Shown here: piece by piece, positions 8,807-34,488 of the stretch
Numbering within the stretch: the stretch's first letter is position 1
Layout: each line of letters opens with the position of its first letter
Virus record (IMG/VR): IMGVR_UViG_3300036820_000053
Span: 1-36,903 of that record
Direction: 5' to 3' (one strand)
DNA length: 36,903 nucleotides
DNA from: a virus
The notes under the pieces: model-generated
Told to the model about the DNA's origin: nothing
Seen by the model: the letters and a program-made list of their open reading frames with translations, nothing else
Database searches by the model: none
Made by a program: the position numbers and the translations under genes

Positions 8807-9775
8807 TTAGGATGGCAAGAATGTTGTGCAATTCAATCCGGAAATCCAATTTTGGTTTGTAATCGCACGGGCAATCGCAAACTTGGCATACAGTTGACTG
8901 TTTTGGGCAACTGAGGAGACTACCCAAGGAGGGCGATATCCGATGATTGCGGTATAGTTGTTCTGCTCAATTTTCGCAGCGGCTTCAAGTCCGTACATTG
9001 GGATTGTGTAGACTGTATTCCCTTTGAGGGAGATTCCAGGGATACGAGCTGCTTTGGATGAGACAAAGAAACGGAATCGACTGATAGAGCAATACTCCTC
9101 AGGTCTGATTCCTTCTTGCGTTGGATAGGAGGACTTGAGCAGAACGCCTTGTACTTTCTGGAAGTCTGCGCAAAGATTAGTATTCGCAAGCGCAATAAAC
9201 GCATCACGAACTCCAGCAGTTCCGAATTTGAGAGTTGCCTCTAATTCAGTTAACATACTACGAGCATCATTACCCAGTAGAATGTTTTCTATGTTGTTAA
9301 TATCATTTAATGATATATTACTAGGCTGATCGCCATTTAAACCCCCAGTACAGTTTATGTAACTAACTGAACTAGAAAATAGATCTCGCATTAAAAGATC
9401 TTCTTTCTCCCTTAACCATTGTCCTAATAGGGCGGTAAACTTAGTAAGAGTTTTGCTGTTTTCGTACAAGACTACTTGCTCGTTAGTAACGATAGATTTA
9501 GCGTAGATTTCCATCGTTGCGTCGATATCTGTACGTACTGGAACTTCTGACGCTGGATCGATACCGGAGCCATCCAGCTGTCCTCCGTCAGTGGACAAAC
9601 GCTCAAAACGCGACATCCTAGTCGTTTTACCGATGTAGCTTTCAGCGTGGTGTTGATCCACTCCAAACGAGTGAATCAAGTTAAACATAGGTGTAGAGAG
9701 AAGATCTTCCGATGCCTGTACGGGCAATTCGGGAGCCATGTTGTTGATATTTGTAATACCAGTAGAAAAGGACAT
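8807..9775 (-). CDS. major capsid protein, N4-gp56-like
   Basis: A 322-residue protein. The segment TRMSRFERLSTDGGQLDGSG at about residues 52-71, then PVRTDIDATMEIYAKSIVTN and a helical ENSKTLTKFTALLGQWLREKEDLLMRDL region, are characteristic of the N4 gp56-type HK97-fold capsid family. It follows the putative scaffold gene by a small gene. Its start has GAGG seven bases upstream, and the 5' leader contains a conserved structured element shared with the long fibre gene. Six-base complements to the ribosome site (CCTCGT versus ACGAGG) lie in the leader, so translation may be modulated. Confidence 0.85.
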   Translation of the reverse strand: MSFSTGITNINNMAPELPVQASEDLLSTPMFNLIHSFGVDQHHAESYIGKTTRMSRFERLSTDGGQLDGSGIDPASEVPVRTDIDATMEIYAKSIVTNEQVVLYENSKTLTKFTALLGQWLREKEDLLMRDLFSSSVSYINCTGGLNGDQPSNISLNDINNIENILLGNDARSMLTELEATLKFGTAGVRDAFIALANTNLCADFQKVQGVLLKSSYPTQEGIRPEEYCSISRFRFFVSSKAARIPGISLKGNTVYTIPMYGLEAAAKIEQNNYTAIIGYRPPWVVSSVAQNSQLYAKFAIARAITNQNWISGLNCTTFLPS

Positions 9776-9850
9776 AAAAAAGCCTCGTATACGATTGATG
9801 ATTTATTCCGTGCGAGGGAACTAATTTCAGCCGTACTGACGAGGTACTTT

Positions 9851-9912
9851 CAGTCTATAGATGGGTTGCGATGCCCTATGGCGCTAGACTTAGGTTATCA
9901 ATTTAAATATTT
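9851..9912 (-). promoter_or_regulatory. conserved leader element, copy A (upstream of major capsid gene)
   Basis: On the minus strand this block reads AAATATTTAAATTGATAA, CTAA, AGCGC, GGCATCGCA, CCCA and TATAGACTG in order. The same words in the same order occur at 34396-34456 in front of the long fibre gene. Words are conserved while spacers differ. A short hairpin GGG(CATCGCAA)CCC in this copy corresponds to TGG(CATCGCAC)CCA in the other, so the stem changes while pairing is kept and the loop is nearly constant, which favours RNA structure. The upstream AT-rich part may be the promoter. It starts at the stop of the preceding gene. Confidence 0.65.
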
Positions 9913-10129
9913 AATGTCTAAGAATTGATTGAATGTCATCCAATCTTTTCGAAGATAAAATATTTTCCTGACATCTTTCAGCGTGATAATGAAAAATTGA
10001 ATGTAGGCATCCAAGCATAAATACCGCGCTTGCTGTATCTCCAGAATGTATGTCTTCTGCAATTTTCTTTATTTTAACCCTAAGCAATTCGAACTCCTTC
10101 TCAAGTTCTTCATCAGTCCAAGTTTTCAT
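9911..10129 (-). CDS. small helical protein between scaffold and capsid (72 aa)
   Basis: A 72-residue, mostly alpha-helical acidic protein (MKTWTDEELEKEFELLRVK at the start). The ATG shares a base with the TAA of the scaffold gene (TAATG), so this start is preferred over an in-frame one 36 bases upstream. Function unknown. Its place suggests a head-assembly accessory protein or simply a coupled small gene. Confidence 0.75.
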   Translation of the reverse strand: MKTWTDEELEKEFELLRVKIKKIAEDIHSGDTASAVFMLGCLHSIFHYHAERCQENILSSKRLDDIQSILRH

Positions 10130-12441: not shown

Positions 12442-12458
12442 ATTTCCTCAAAATTAAA

Positions 12459-12533
12459 GGCACGTGTTGGATTTGCGCCAACGACCTCTTAGTGATCGAT
12501 CCTAAGCGCTCTAATATACTGAGCTAACATGCC
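12459..12533 (-). tRNA. tRNA-like sequence with a 9-base anticodon loop
   Basis: The minus strand folds as a 75-base cloverleaf: acceptor GGCATGT/ACGTGCC (7 bp, one G-U), TA, D stem GCTC/GAGC, anticodon stem CTTAG/CTAAG, variable AGGTC, T stem GTTGG/CCAAC. Abnormal points: the anticodon loop is nine bases (GATCGATCA), or seven (ATCGATC) if a G-A pair extends the stem; the D loop lacks GG; and the T loop is CGCAAAT instead of TTCAAAT. No CCA is encoded. It may be a degenerate or specialised tRNA, and the isotype cannot be assigned safely. Confidence 0.6.
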
Positions 12534-18006: not shown

Positions 18007-18147
18007 TCAAATTAATTCCATCATAGCCATGAGCATAAATACTATTACAATAACGTTAACCCAAATCGCTATTGAGGGGAATCCCAGTACCATGCACGCG
18101 CAGCTGAAAGCGATGCAGAGGGAAATATATCTACTGATTTGTTTCAT
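18007..18147 (-). CDS. small membrane protein, holin candidate (46 aa)
   Basis: A 46-residue frame that starts inside the 3' end of the resolvase gene (17-base overlap). Residues about 5-22 (SRYISLCIAFSCACMVLG) and 25-44 (SIAIWVNVIVIVFMLMAMME) are two hydrophobic segments separated by a short turn, so a hairpin membrane topology is likely. Small class II holins have this shape, but no endolysin is adjacent. Codon continuity and tight overlap support it; the holin role is only a suggestion. Confidence 0.5.
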   Translation of the reverse strand: MKQISRYISLCIAFSCACMVLGFPSIAIWVNVIVIVFMLMAMMELI

Positions 18148-18718
18148 GCTGTTGTTGTTGCTGTTCGATGCGTTTAAGATAGTCATAGAGAGTTGGCAAG
18201 CTAATATTTAGATCCATCGCGATCTTGCTCTTTGTGTCACGAGTTTGCATAGCTGTCTTTATTTTTTCAACAATTTCGGGCGTGTATTTTGAATGCCCCC
18301 CTAGATACTTGCCCTGCTTCTTGGCTATGAGTATGCCTTCCATCTGCCGCTCTTTTATGAGGGAGTGCTCGAACTCGGCTATCGCACCCATTATCATGAG
18401 CATGAGATTAGACATGGGGGACTGCTTGCCGTCAAACGTCAGGTTCTGCTGTACGATTTTCAGGCTTGCGCGCTTAGACACTATGATGTCTACAAGCTTC
18501 AGCAAGTCCCTTGTATTGCGTGCCATCCTGTCCATTGCGTGCACATATACAACGTCATCGTCGCGTATGTAGTCTAGCATTGCTTGCAGCTGGGGTCGCT
18601 TTATCGTCGTGCCTGATGCGTACTCGATAAATTTCTTGTCTAGCTGTATACCTTCGAGCTGCCGCTCGGGGTTTTGGTCTACGGTGCTTACTCTTATGTA
18701 GCCGATGCGCTTACTCAT
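18131..18718 (-). CDS. serine recombinase, resolvase/invertase family (195 aa)
   Basis: A 195-residue protein of usual resolvase/invertase size. The N-terminal catalytic domain has YIRVSTVDQN with nucleophile Ser11, conserved Arg64 and Arg67 in MDRMARN, and the helix E region GAIAEFEHSLIKERQMEGI. The C-terminal Hin-type helix-turn-helix is KSKIAMDLNISLPTLYDYLK (about 163-182), ending in polyGln. It would cut and rejoin DNA at short crossover sites, as in multimer resolution or segment inversion. I found no paired crossover sites flanking an obvious invertible segment. Confidence 0.9.
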   Translation of the reverse strand: MSKRIGYIRVSTVDQNPERQLEGIQLDKKFIEYASGTTIKRPQLQAMLDYIRDDDVVYVHAMDRMARNTRDLLKLVDIIVSKRASLKIVQQNLTFDGKQSPMSNLMLMIMGAIAEFEHSLIKERQMEGILIAKKQGKYLGGHSKYTPEIVEKIKTAMQTRDTKSKIAMDLNISLPTLYDYLKRIEQQQQQHETNQ

Positions 18719-31626: not shown

Positions 31627-34344
31627 TTATGTAACTTTCTGGCCATTCCAGATCGTCCCATTAAAATAAAGTGTCATTGATGCATAAGCCGTTGTAAGAG
31701 TTTTTGACGCTGCACTTGTTCCGGCGGAAGAAATATTATTGCCGTTACCGTCTATGGTAATTGTGTTTGCAGCTGATTGTCCAGTGGCATCATAAATCAC
31801 ATATGTTTGCCCTGTGGTTGGCGCTGCTGGCAATGTTATGGTCACGACTCCAGCTGTGGGGTCAACGGCTAAAAAGTAATCGCTTCCCAGTGCTGCATAT
31901 GCTGAGGCTGCATGATTCACAGTAGTGATTTTAGTGATCTGACCACTATTAAGCTTGATGGAGCCCGTTCCAGCCGCGATTACAGTTATTGCTGCTGAGT
32001 TGGTTGTTCCTAGAGTCAATGTATGCGCTGCTGCCCCTGTAGCTATATTTACAACTCCAGCCCTAGTAGCTCCAGATGCCAATATATTAACCGTTTGAGT
32101 TCCCGCAGAGGCCGCGCCATTCATGATAGATAGGGTGGTGTTAGCCCCGGGAGTCGTTCCGTTTAAAATATTAACGGTTTGAGCAGCTGTAGATGAAGTC
32201 CCAGAGGCTATATTTAAAGTCTGAGCAGTTCCAGCAACACCATTCATAAGGTCAACAGCCGCTAAACCACCAGTAGAGTTAGCAATGCTAATTTTTGCGG
32301 TTTGAGTAGCTGCTCCGATAGTTATTGTTGCTCCTGCCGCTCCTTGGATGTTCATCGCTGACCCAGAGGCGACCGTGACGATCCCTGCCGCGGTGTTACC
32401 GATGGATACTACGTGAGCGGCTGCTCCGGTACCTATATTTACAGTCCCTGCGGTGGTTGCCGCTGTGGCGCCGAAAATATTCACAGCTAAAGTACCGCCA
32501 GAAGCGTTTCCATTGAATAAATTGTATGTGCATGTACCGGAGGCTATGACCCCACTGAACATGCTAATCGTATCTGTCGCACCAGCGATTGCACCGTTAA
32601 AGAGCTGAAAGTTTTGGCTGCCTGTAGTGTTAGCCCCACCGAGGATTTGAACGGATTGAGTACCAGCGGAGGCAATGCCAGCCATTATAGCAAGAGTTTG
32701 ATTGCCCCCAGGAGTTGCACCGTCTAATATATTTACAGCACTTGCTTGCGTAGCCGATGCACCAGAAGCAATAGAAATGGTTTGCGATGTGGTATTAGTT
32801 CCATTTCCAATTGTTATTTGGTTACCTGATACACCATCACCGATCGAAATAGTCTTTGCTCCTGCCCCAGTACCGCCAAGATTGATGGCAATAGGCTGAG
32901 AACCCGTCCCCAAATTGAAGACGGATGTTCCCGTGGCAGCAGCTCCAGTCATGATATTGACGGTCTGAGCTACCGCTGCACTTGTAACGCCTGTCATCAC
33001 GTTGATTGTTTGAGCAGACCCAGGAGTAGCTCCAGCAAGTAAGTTAAATGTACAGGCGGCGGTAGACGATGAAGCATTAAGCACACTAACAGTATCTGTG
33101 TGCCCTGGTGAGTTAGTTTGACAAGCGCCAATATAAATATTTCTATTAGCAGATGGATTAGCATTTCCTAAATCAATTTCTGTGATTCTAGGGCTATCTC
33201 CTAAGAGTAAAGTGCTTGTTCCTGCCGTTTCAGCGCCTGAGAGTATATTTACAGTACTTCCTCCACTTCCTGTGCCGTTAGCAATGTTTACGGTCTGTAG
33301 AGATGTATTGATACCACTAGCGATCGTGACAGTATCTCCACCCGTCCCATTAGACAAGTTAAGCGTATTAGCTGTCGTACCACCTAAGATAGCGACTGTA
33401 TTTCCGCCATTGCCCGTTGCTATATTGACAGCGTTAGCGGTTCCACTACCTGTAGCAATGTTTGTCGTGTTGACTCCATTGCCAATCCCGATATCAACAA
33501 TATTTGTGGTACTAGAATTACCCAGCTGTATGTGTCCAGTTGATTGTGCTGTACCGCCAATCCTTAGAGTTCCTGTGGTTAGTCCAGCACCGATATTTAT
33601 GTTTGTTGCTGTTGTACCATTTATTGTCAGGGTTGTGTGGGCTAGTAACTCTGTATTTGTAGCCGATCCTGTACTTCCGATTATAATCGTCCTGGATCCT
33701 GCCGTGCCGATGTTAATACCATCTGATGCGGCATCCGAACCGATATTAATTGTGGTACCATTTGAGTTCCACGTTCCGCCAGCGCTACCCGCTAAAGTCG
33801 CAAAATTAAGCGTTGTAAATGTGGCTATACCTGCGGCCGTGCCTCCAATAGTAGGAGGGGAGGCAAACATAGTCGTAATTTGGTTGACAGGGATAACAGT
33901 ATTAGGCCCGTGAAGAGGTGTGTATGGGGTTACAACAGCTGTTGCGTCTGCAAGATATACATAGCCCTGAAGAGCTGTAGTAGCTGGATTTCCAGCTCCT
34001 ACAACGATGGCCGCTAGAGCAGTCGCAACGTCATTAGCTGATGATACATAGGCCGAACTGGGTGCACCTCCCGACTCTGTTTGTGCTAAGGTGGCTAAGA
34101 AAACGATCCCTGGGGTCGTTGTAGTTGCAAGGGCTCCTCCAGCCTGATTCCAAACTCCTGCACCTGTGGTTTCATAGATCATAGCGGGATTAACGGAATT
34201 GTCTTGCCATCGTGTTCCCGGATTATAAATATCGTGTGTAGTCGGTGCGCGCTGAGCGTAGCCAAGAAATTGCGGATACACAAACGCATCCACACCCGTA
34301 GCAAAAGGAGTTCCGCCTGCATTGTTATTTAGAGCAGCTGTCAT
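31627..34344 (-). CDS. long repetitive tail fibre (905 aa)
   Basis: The N-terminal 160 residues are the probable virion attachment (MTAALNNNAGGTPFATGVDA, VYPQFLGYAQRAPTTHDIYN, YVSSANDVATALAA). Residues about 190-800 are tandem short beta units such as TVNILNGTTPG, QTLAIMAG and AVNIATGNGG of roughly 10-25 residues, consistent with a trimeric beta-helical shaft. The C-terminal 105 residues (DPTAGVVTITLPAAPTTGQT, then ITIDGNGNNI) form a tip domain. No chaperone or enzymatic motif seen. The 5' leader has copy B of the conserved element. Confidence 0.88.
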   Translation of the reverse strand: MTAALNNNAGGTPFATGVDAFVYPQFLGYAQRAPTTHDIYNPGTRWQDNSVNPAMIYETTGAGVWNQAGGALATTTTPGIVFLATLAQTESGGAPSSAYVSSANDVATALAAIVVGAGNPATTALQGYVYLADATAVVTPYTPLHGPNTVIPVNQITTMFASPPTIGGTAAGIATFTTLNFATLAGSAGGTWNSNGTTINIGSDAASDGINIGTAGSRTIIIGSTGSATNTELLAHTTLTINGTTATNINIGAGLTTGTLRIGGTAQSTGHIQLGNSSTTNIVDIGIGNGVNTTNIATGSGTANAVNIATGNGGNTVAILGGTTANTLNLSNGTGGDTVTIASGINTSLQTVNIANGTGSGGSTVNILSGAETAGTSTLLLGDSPRITEIDLGNANPSANRNIYIGACQTNSPGHTDTVSVLNASSSTAACTFNLLAGATPGSAQTINVMTGVTSAAVAQTVNIMTGAAATGTSVFNLGTGSQPIAINLGGTGAGAKTISIGDGVSGNQITIGNGTNTTSQTISIASGASATQASAVNILDGATPGGNQTLAIMAGIASAGTQSVQILGGANTTGSQNFQLFNGAIAGATDTISMFSGVIASGTCTYNLFNGNASGGTLAVNIFGATAATTAGTVNIGTGAAAHVVSIGNTAAGIVTVASGSAMNIQGAAGATITIGAATQTAKISIANSTGGLAAVDLMNGVAGTAQTLNIASGTSSTAAQTVNILNGTTPGANTTLSIMNGAASAGTQTVNILASGATRAGVVNIATGAAAHTLTLGTTNSAAITVIAAGTGSIKLNSGQITKITTVNHAASAYAALGSDYFLAVDPTAGVVTITLPAAPTTGQTYVIYDATGQSAANTITIDGNGNNISSAGTSAASKTLTTAYASMTLYFNGTIWNGQKVT

Positions 34345-34395
34345 GACAAACCTATAGTTTTATTTTAATAAGACTACGGAGGCGAGTCGTAAATA

Positions 34396-34456
34396 CAGCC
34401 TATAACGTGGGTGCGATGCCACAAGCGCTGTTGTTAGCTTATCAATTAAAATATTT
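34396..34456 (-). promoter_or_regulatory. conserved leader element, copy B (upstream of long fibre gene)
   Basis: Minus strand order AAATATTTTAATTGATAA, CTAA, AGCGC, GGCATCGCA, CCCA, TATAGGCTG: the same words as copy A at 9851-9912, with different linkers. ACAGC can pair with GCTGT around a TGG(CATCGCAC)CCA hairpin. It ends 52 bases before the fibre ATG. Confidence 0.65.
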
Positions 34457-34488
34457 TTTCTCTACCCAAATAAAAGAAATGTCTTGCG

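Follow-up and report, generated by a model that had tools for sequence, protein, structure and literature searches.

The leaders of two structural genes of an uncultured podovirus-like phage, a presumed capsid gene and a tail-fibre-like gene, were found to be homologous, and each of them very likely represents a conserved structured RNA rather than only a promoter. From 5′ to 3′ the leader is composed of a sigma70-like promoter, a row of two or three H-type pseudoknots, and a helix in which the Shine-Dalgarno (SD) sequence is paired with the loop of pseudoknot 2. On balance, the evidence tips toward a cis-acting regulator, i.e., a translational switch on two late structural-gene mRNAs, for which no transcript, translation or binding data are available.

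The window, which is the whole stretch of DNA that was analysed, is the 36.9-kb record of this phage. Its minus strand carries the structural genes, i.e., terminase, portal, a scaffold-like gene, the presumed capsid gene and tail genes. The first three were placed in a gene-order survey, the presumed capsid gene by gene order only, and the tail-fibre-like gene by its PHROG 972 match:

16960-15593, minus strand: terminase gene
15083-13050, minus strand: portal gene
11001-10129, minus strand: scaffold-like gene
8807-9775, minus strand: presumed major capsid protein gene (322 aa), 3′ of leader copy A
31627-34344, minus strand: tail-fibre-like gene (905 aa, repetitive), 3′ of leader copy B

That the 322-aa protein is the major capsid protein is presumed and was inferred from the gene order alone. 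It had no match in PHROG, Pfam or PDB, and a structure prediction, the input of which had too little sequence diversity, reached a pLDDT of 30. Residues 818-902 of the 905-aa protein matched PHROG 972, the tail fibre proximal subunit (E 1.3e-11), and its N-terminus is kept in relatives. If the record is circular, the fibre-like gene might join the run of structural genes across the record ends. The capsid had no match among 50,697 phage records, and thus close named relatives are lacking. DNA and protein searches of named phages and plasmids retrieved neither a capsid nor a leader relative, and the best matches of the portal among named phages were only 20-26% identical. The window also contains a tRNA-Ser (CGA) gene on the minus strand (12458-12533), which separates the portal gene from the capsid region, and a serine resolvase/invertase gene at 18131-18718 (Pfam Resolvase, PHROG DNA invertase).

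The original prediction, which had been made from the sequence alone, placed two copies of a structured leader in the window, copy A at 9851-9912 and copy B at 34396-34456, and listed short words that they share. Both copies were verified at these places, both on the minus strand, and every listed word was found in the same order in both. Copies A and B are homologous: a local blastn within the window gave 71% identity over 77 nt (9844-9920 and 34389-34464, E 3e-8), and the words AATTGATAA and GGCATCGCA have no other occurrence on the minus strand of the window. The covariance model R2, which was built from other phages only and contains no window sequence, matched 34342-34440 (28 bits, E 8e-6) as well as 9773-9890 (25 bits, E 7e-5); beyond copies A and B it had no match in the whole 36.9 kb. 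The predicted stem change around the loop (GGG/CCC versus TGG/CCA) and the ribosome site ACGAGG (9788-9783) with its leader complement CCTCGT (9844-9839) were also confirmed. A conserved structured leader with a possible late promoter at its AT-rich start was supported, as was its location in the 5′ leaders of virion-protein genes, with the capsid identity resting on gene order only. Other parts of the prediction had to be changed. The extent of copy A was too short, because the element runs from the promoter (−35 box at 9920) to the start codon at 9773. The loop that had been regarded as constant is a pseudoknot strand, in which GCG (9884-9882) pairs with CGC (9870-9868). Two further modules in copy A and one further module in copy B had been missed, as had the pseudoknots and the competition between SD pairing and pseudoknot 2.

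Module 1 of copy A (GGCATCGCA; 9863-9912) is closer to the fibre copy of the window (34407-34464) than to the capsid orthologues of the same class (GAATTCGYC). This resemblance suggests an exchange between both leaders in the window phage.

The presumed capsid protein had 261 relatives in uncultured viral contigs. A total of 86 distinct capsid leaders were read, and the element was present in nearly all of them. The aligned relative capsids were 84-95% identical to the window capsid. Their leaders were strongly divergent in sequence, and were thus good material for a covariation test. A strict DNA pattern of the shared words yielded zero matches in viral contigs, and it is the structure that is conserved, while the shared words are not. 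Three models (R1-R3) were built from three classes of capsid leaders, and 26 near-complete relatives were examined with them. In many of these, R2 or R3 detected a further copy, which is located about 11 kb 3′ of the copy at the capsid gene. Twelve second-copy places were fetched, 10 of which directly precede a gene that is similar to the window fibre, nearly always in the N-terminus. At one place the match ends before the fibre start is reached; helix and ATG follow further on, and the protein was not compared. The second-copy match G004:12527 (16 bits) was rejected as a false positive, with no fibre start downstream. The pair of capsid copy and fibre copy was thus found in 10, probably 11, of the 26 genomes. 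The fibre leaders of the relatives have kept modules 1 and 2 and the SD helix, while their 3′ sequence is different from that of the capsid leaders. The exact class II/III motif TACGCCTCNNNAACGTAAG was present in 38 contigs of the viral collection, in 35 of them before the capsid gene; the remaining three lack a capsid relative and appear to be chance matches.

Two additional observations were made with relatives. In L083 (7780-7925), a more distant relative on a contig of a Nitrospiraceae MAG with a capsid that is about 75% identical, three pseudoknot-like modules appear by eye to be kept, with loops of the TTGGCC type in place of TTCGCC. The int-alpA RNA (RF02996) scored above the gathering score in two relatives (L089:174-237 and L071:3349-3412).

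The 5′ end of the leader is formed by the promoter, which was predicted at the following positions:

9892-9920, minus strand: predicted promoter of copy A, −35 TAGACA (9920-9915), 17-bp AT-rich spacer, −10 TAACCT (9897-9892)
34436-34464, minus strand: putative promoter of copy B, TAGAGA (34464-34459), N17, TAAGCT (34441-34436), from the alignment with copy A

The −35 box of copy B is weak, and an unbiased scan favoured another site. The consensus of 85 position-matched leaders was −35 TTGNNN and −10 TANNNT, separated by an AT-rich spacer that mostly has 17 bp. In 54 of the 85, the end of the −10 box and the aligned structure start were exactly 2 nt apart, and a sigma70-type promoter is thus found 5′ of the structure with a constant spacing. 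It is predicted from these sequences that a sigma70-like promoter opens each leader; a measured transcription start does not exist.

Downstream of the promoter all modules follow the same plan. A short strand S1 (GGC, GAC, AGC, TGC, and others) is followed by a linker, which often starts with UGA, and by the hairpin S2. The loop strand of the hairpin (GCC, GUC, GCU, GCA) is complementary to S1 of the same module, resulting in an H-type pseudoknot. Most class I and class II capsid leaders have three modules, while class III leaders mostly have two. The modules of the window are the following:

9863-9884, minus strand: copy A pseudoknot 1, S1 GCG (9884-9882) with CGC (9870-9868), S2 GGG (9876-9874) with CCC (9865-9863)
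9833-9855, minus strand: copy A pseudoknot 2, S1 GAC (9855-9853) with GUC (9840-9838), S2 GUAC (9847-9844) with GUAC (9836-9833)
9806-9831, minus strand: copy A module 3, hairpin UUCC (9820-9817) with GGAA (9809-9806), S1 of only 2 bp, GC (9831-9830) with GC (9813-9812)
34407-34428, minus strand: copy B pseudoknot 1, S1 GCG (34428-34426) with CGC (34415-34413), S2 GUGG (34422-34419) with CCAC (34410-34407)
34375-34400, minus strand: copy B pseudoknot 2, S1 GGC (34400-34398) with GCC (34383-34381), S2 UACG (34391-34388) with CGUA (34378-34375)

Pseudoknot 1 of copy B is homologous to that of copy A and to the AGCG..UCGC modules of the fibre leaders of relatives. A lack of covariation in homologous phages had been named as a result that would refute the RNA structure; covariation was found to be strong, in several independent helices. 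For pseudoknot 1 in relatives, the pairing between loop and upstream strand exceeded that of permuted partners, and 0 of 5000 permutations were as high when copy B was pooled with classes I and Ib; the same test gave no signal inside class Ib or class II, both of which are near-uniform. In S1 of pseudoknot 2, 98.1% of the cells were paired, versus 89.6% with shuffled partners, and 24 double changes occurred. Its middle pair was G-C in 30, A-U in 23 and a mismatch in one of 54 rows, and controls with a slid register had at most 66% paired. On the capsid-gene tree the two sides of this stem had undergone 15 and 16 changes, and in all of the 9 independent pairs that were supported, one side had switched along with the other (p 0.004), with the caveat that this number of independent switches could be too high if phages have exchanged whole leaders. 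The two copies of the window differ in the same stem by a compensatory change, GAC:GUC in copy A versus GGC:GCC in copy B, and this module of copy B is matched by R2. The hairpin of module 3 reached a covariation score of 0.807 versus 0.220 after shuffling. In relatives, the respective values for the pairing of S1 of module 3 were 77.8% versus 66.0%, and a shift of the class I rows by one column led to a lower value. For class II hairpins they were 92.6% versus 83.1%. S1 of class III hardly varies, having only two double changes, and half of its first pair is unpaired. A scan with a generic pseudoknot descriptor, which revealed only a moderate enrichment (218 versus about 132 in shuffles), was too permissive and was dropped as stand-alone evidence. 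The shuffle controls make no correction for relatedness, and therefore the weight rests on the agreement of many helices and many pair types.

The 3′ part of the leader can form a helix in which the SD sequence is paired with the loop of module 2, i.e., of pseudoknot 2:

9783-9844, minus strand: copy A SD helix, CCUCGU (9844-9839) with ACGAGG (9788-9783), extended by GUACGG.. with ..CGUAU
34351-34382, minus strand: copy B SD stem, CCU (34382-34380) with AGG (34353-34351) and GUAGU with ACUAU, a predicted fold

The cognate pairing of loop and SD sequence in capsid leaders was higher than after permutation, with 0 of 5000 permutations as high both in class III and in classes I and II together; in fibre leaders it was likewise higher, with 95 of 5000 permutations as high. 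The helix is retained with very different sequences, e.g., CCUCUGUAA/UUACAGAGG in L032, CUCUCAAA/UUUGAGAG in L049, UCUCACCUA/UAGGUGAGA in L093, GCACCUCGC/GCGAGGUGC in L081, and GCCUCCGUAG/CUAUGGAGGC in the fibre leader of L161; it has up to 10 bp in the fibre leaders of relatives. When the whole leader was searched for the best SD complement, 72 of 83 leaders had it in module 2, while some leaders have an SD helix of only 5 bp or a better SD complement elsewhere. The predicted probability that the SD sequence is unpaired was 0.13 versus 0.31 in shuffles, and 71 of 84 leaders had a value below that of their shuffles (p 4e-11); for copy A it was 0.017 in the native sequence versus 0.36 in the shuffled one. 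With a pseudoknot-free energy model, the cost of freeing the ribosome binding site was 14.0 kcal/mol for copy A and 7.8 kcal/mol for copy B.

Because the stems of pseudoknots and hairpins and the SD helix covary, the leader must be regarded as a transcribed RNA under selection. A promoter or DNA operator alone, without any RNA element, is therefore all but excluded: the conserved promoter does exist, but the double compensatory changes lie 3′ of it in several helices and refute this explanation in the main. An RNA thermometer, in which temperature would melt the SD helix, would be in accord with the sealed SD sequence, and phage thermometers are known (PMC11182007). However, the barrier of 14 kcal/mol is high and a thermometer would not need tandem pseudoknots, which makes this a remote possibility. 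The same holds true for a transcription attenuator, with the SD helix and a T run as intrinsic terminator and the pseudoknots as antiterminator. In its favour, 16 of 32 class I leaders and 6 of 23 class III leaders have a run of at least five T after the helix. Against it, such a run is present in 0 of 23 class II and 0 of 5 class IV leaders and is absent in most fibre leaders. Copy A has a T6 run (9776-9783) right after the SD helix and just before the start codon, so that the helix could also act as a terminator at this place.

The SD helix overlapped S1′ or S2 of pseudoknot 2 in 78 of 78 leaders counted; the search was performed within module 2 only, and thus the overlap is partly built in. 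As the helix and pseudoknot 2 use overlapping bases, the two folds compete. Two unrelated genes have a strong covarying helix at their ribosome sites. This points to translation, the control of which is the likely function, with the translational output being inferred. The competition suggests a switch. Whether there are indeed two states remains evenly balanced, and the switch as well as an acting factor are inferred. The basis of this model is shown, namely the homology, the covarying stems and SD helix, the position, the two copies in many genomes and the predicted occlusion of the ribosome binding site. In the model, the sigma70-like promoter would start the transcript a few bases 5′ of pseudoknot 1, and modules 1 and 2, in the capsid leader also module 3, would form tandem H-type pseudoknots. 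The 3′ part would then build the long helix that hides the SD sequence with the aid of loop and stem bases of pseudoknot 2. In the ON state the pseudoknots would be formed and the ribosome site free, in the OFF state the ribosome site would be sealed, and the output would be the timing or limiting of virion protein translation. Either the knotted nascent leader may be translated ahead of the closure of the SD helix, or a phage factor, i.e., a virion protein or a regulator, may bind to the knots and set the ON/OFF balance. As a counterpoint, it is conceivable that a shared structured leader serves RNA stability or transcription.

Three further explanations compete with the translational switch. 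The most serious one is an antiterminator like put, because HK022 also has two copies downstream of promoters; the nascent 5′ RNA would bind to the host RNA polymerase and allow read-through of pauses and terminators in long structural operons. The presence of two copies per genome, each just 3′ of a promoter and with a shared part of about 70 nt, is like putL and putR of HK022 (PMC9378689). However, put consists of two stem-loops for early operons, while the leaders described here have pseudoknots before structural genes, the conserved SD pairing is not needed for put, and no strong intrinsic terminator was seen between the capsid and fibre genes on that strand, so that this explanation is unlikely. 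A 5′ stabiliser, i.e., a pseudoknot at the extreme 5′ end that guards abundant late mRNAs against 5′-end-dependent decay, is also doubtful. Pseudoknot 1 starts within a few nucleotides of the predicted start site, and the products are presumably abundant virion proteins, but the covarying SD helix and the retention of modules 2 and 3 would be left unexplained. Lastly, the leader could be a decoy or antitoxin mimic, with tandem pseudoknots like ToxI neutralising a ribonuclease toxin of the host. Phages can evade ToxIN through RNA mimicry (PMC3475682), and a phage RNA that has a good promoter and carries small pseudoknots in tandem would fit. The absence of an Rfam match, the fixed position before two genes and the conserved SD pairing make this explanation very improbable.

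A comparison with Rfam 15 (4227 covariance models) yielded no match at the gathering score in the window, and no match up to E 1 in the capsid and fibre leaders of 21 related loci; a sub-threshold snoRNA match in L159 is outside of its fibre leader. This includes ToxI, as no sequence or structure match to a known family was found in the window and the 21 related loci. ToxI repeats of type III toxin-antitoxin systems likewise are tandem small RNA pseudoknots, but they are a non-coding antitoxin that is processed by its own toxin, whereas the modules described here are inside mRNA leaders and paired with the SD sequence. The put RNAs share with the leaders that they are structured RNAs of about 70 nt just 3′ of promoters, two per genome (PMC9378689); they differ in having two stem-loops without pseudoknots, in belonging to early operons and in acting on RNA polymerase, with binding to its β′ zinc-binding domain and read-through, without any role of the SD sequence. 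The nearest system in function is the gene 32 operator of T4, T2 and RB69, which also has an H-type pseudoknot in a phage mRNA 5′ leader upstream of the ribosome site and controls translation (PMC3014915). This feature is met by the leaders described here, based on the S1/S2 covariation of modules 1-3. In contrast to two or three tandem pseudoknots, the gene 32 operator has only one, 67 nt upstream, and its ribosome binding site is unstructured, A+U-rich and coated by gp32, while here the site is not of this type and is predicted to be sequestered in a strong helix, with which pseudoknot 2 competes. The encoded protein is different, and no binding protein is known for the leaders described here. 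Autoregulated leaders of ribosomal proteins and SD-sequestering riboswitches use alternative folds that hide or free the SD sequence. The leaders share the conserved covarying SD helix with such translational leaders (0 of 5000 permutations), but no known aptamer or ribosomal protein site is present in them, and they were found only before phage structural genes. A description of such leaders was not found in the open papers that were searched, a coverage that excluded most subscription papers and all bioRxiv preprints.

Only rarely do phage mRNAs have pseudoknot operators, and according to a review from 2010 T4 gene 32 was possibly the sole viral pseudoknot in translational autoregulation (PMC3014915). 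Here, a tandem-pseudoknot leader has been kept before a presumed capsid gene across a large group of uncultured phages, and before a fibre gene in many members, with a structure that is retained while the leader sequence changes fast. The leader family could join RNA libraries. It is tempting to speculate, as a bolder reading that is merely possible, that the leaders are a new class of phage riboregulators and that a single phage factor reads both far-apart leaders and toggles the access to the SD sequence; this factor might be the capsid protein or an intermediate of assembly. If true, the synthesis of capsid and fibre would be tied to each other or to assembly. Taken together, the leaders offer a directly testable model of how a tailed phage may control, at a step after transcription, when its structural proteins are made or in what amount.
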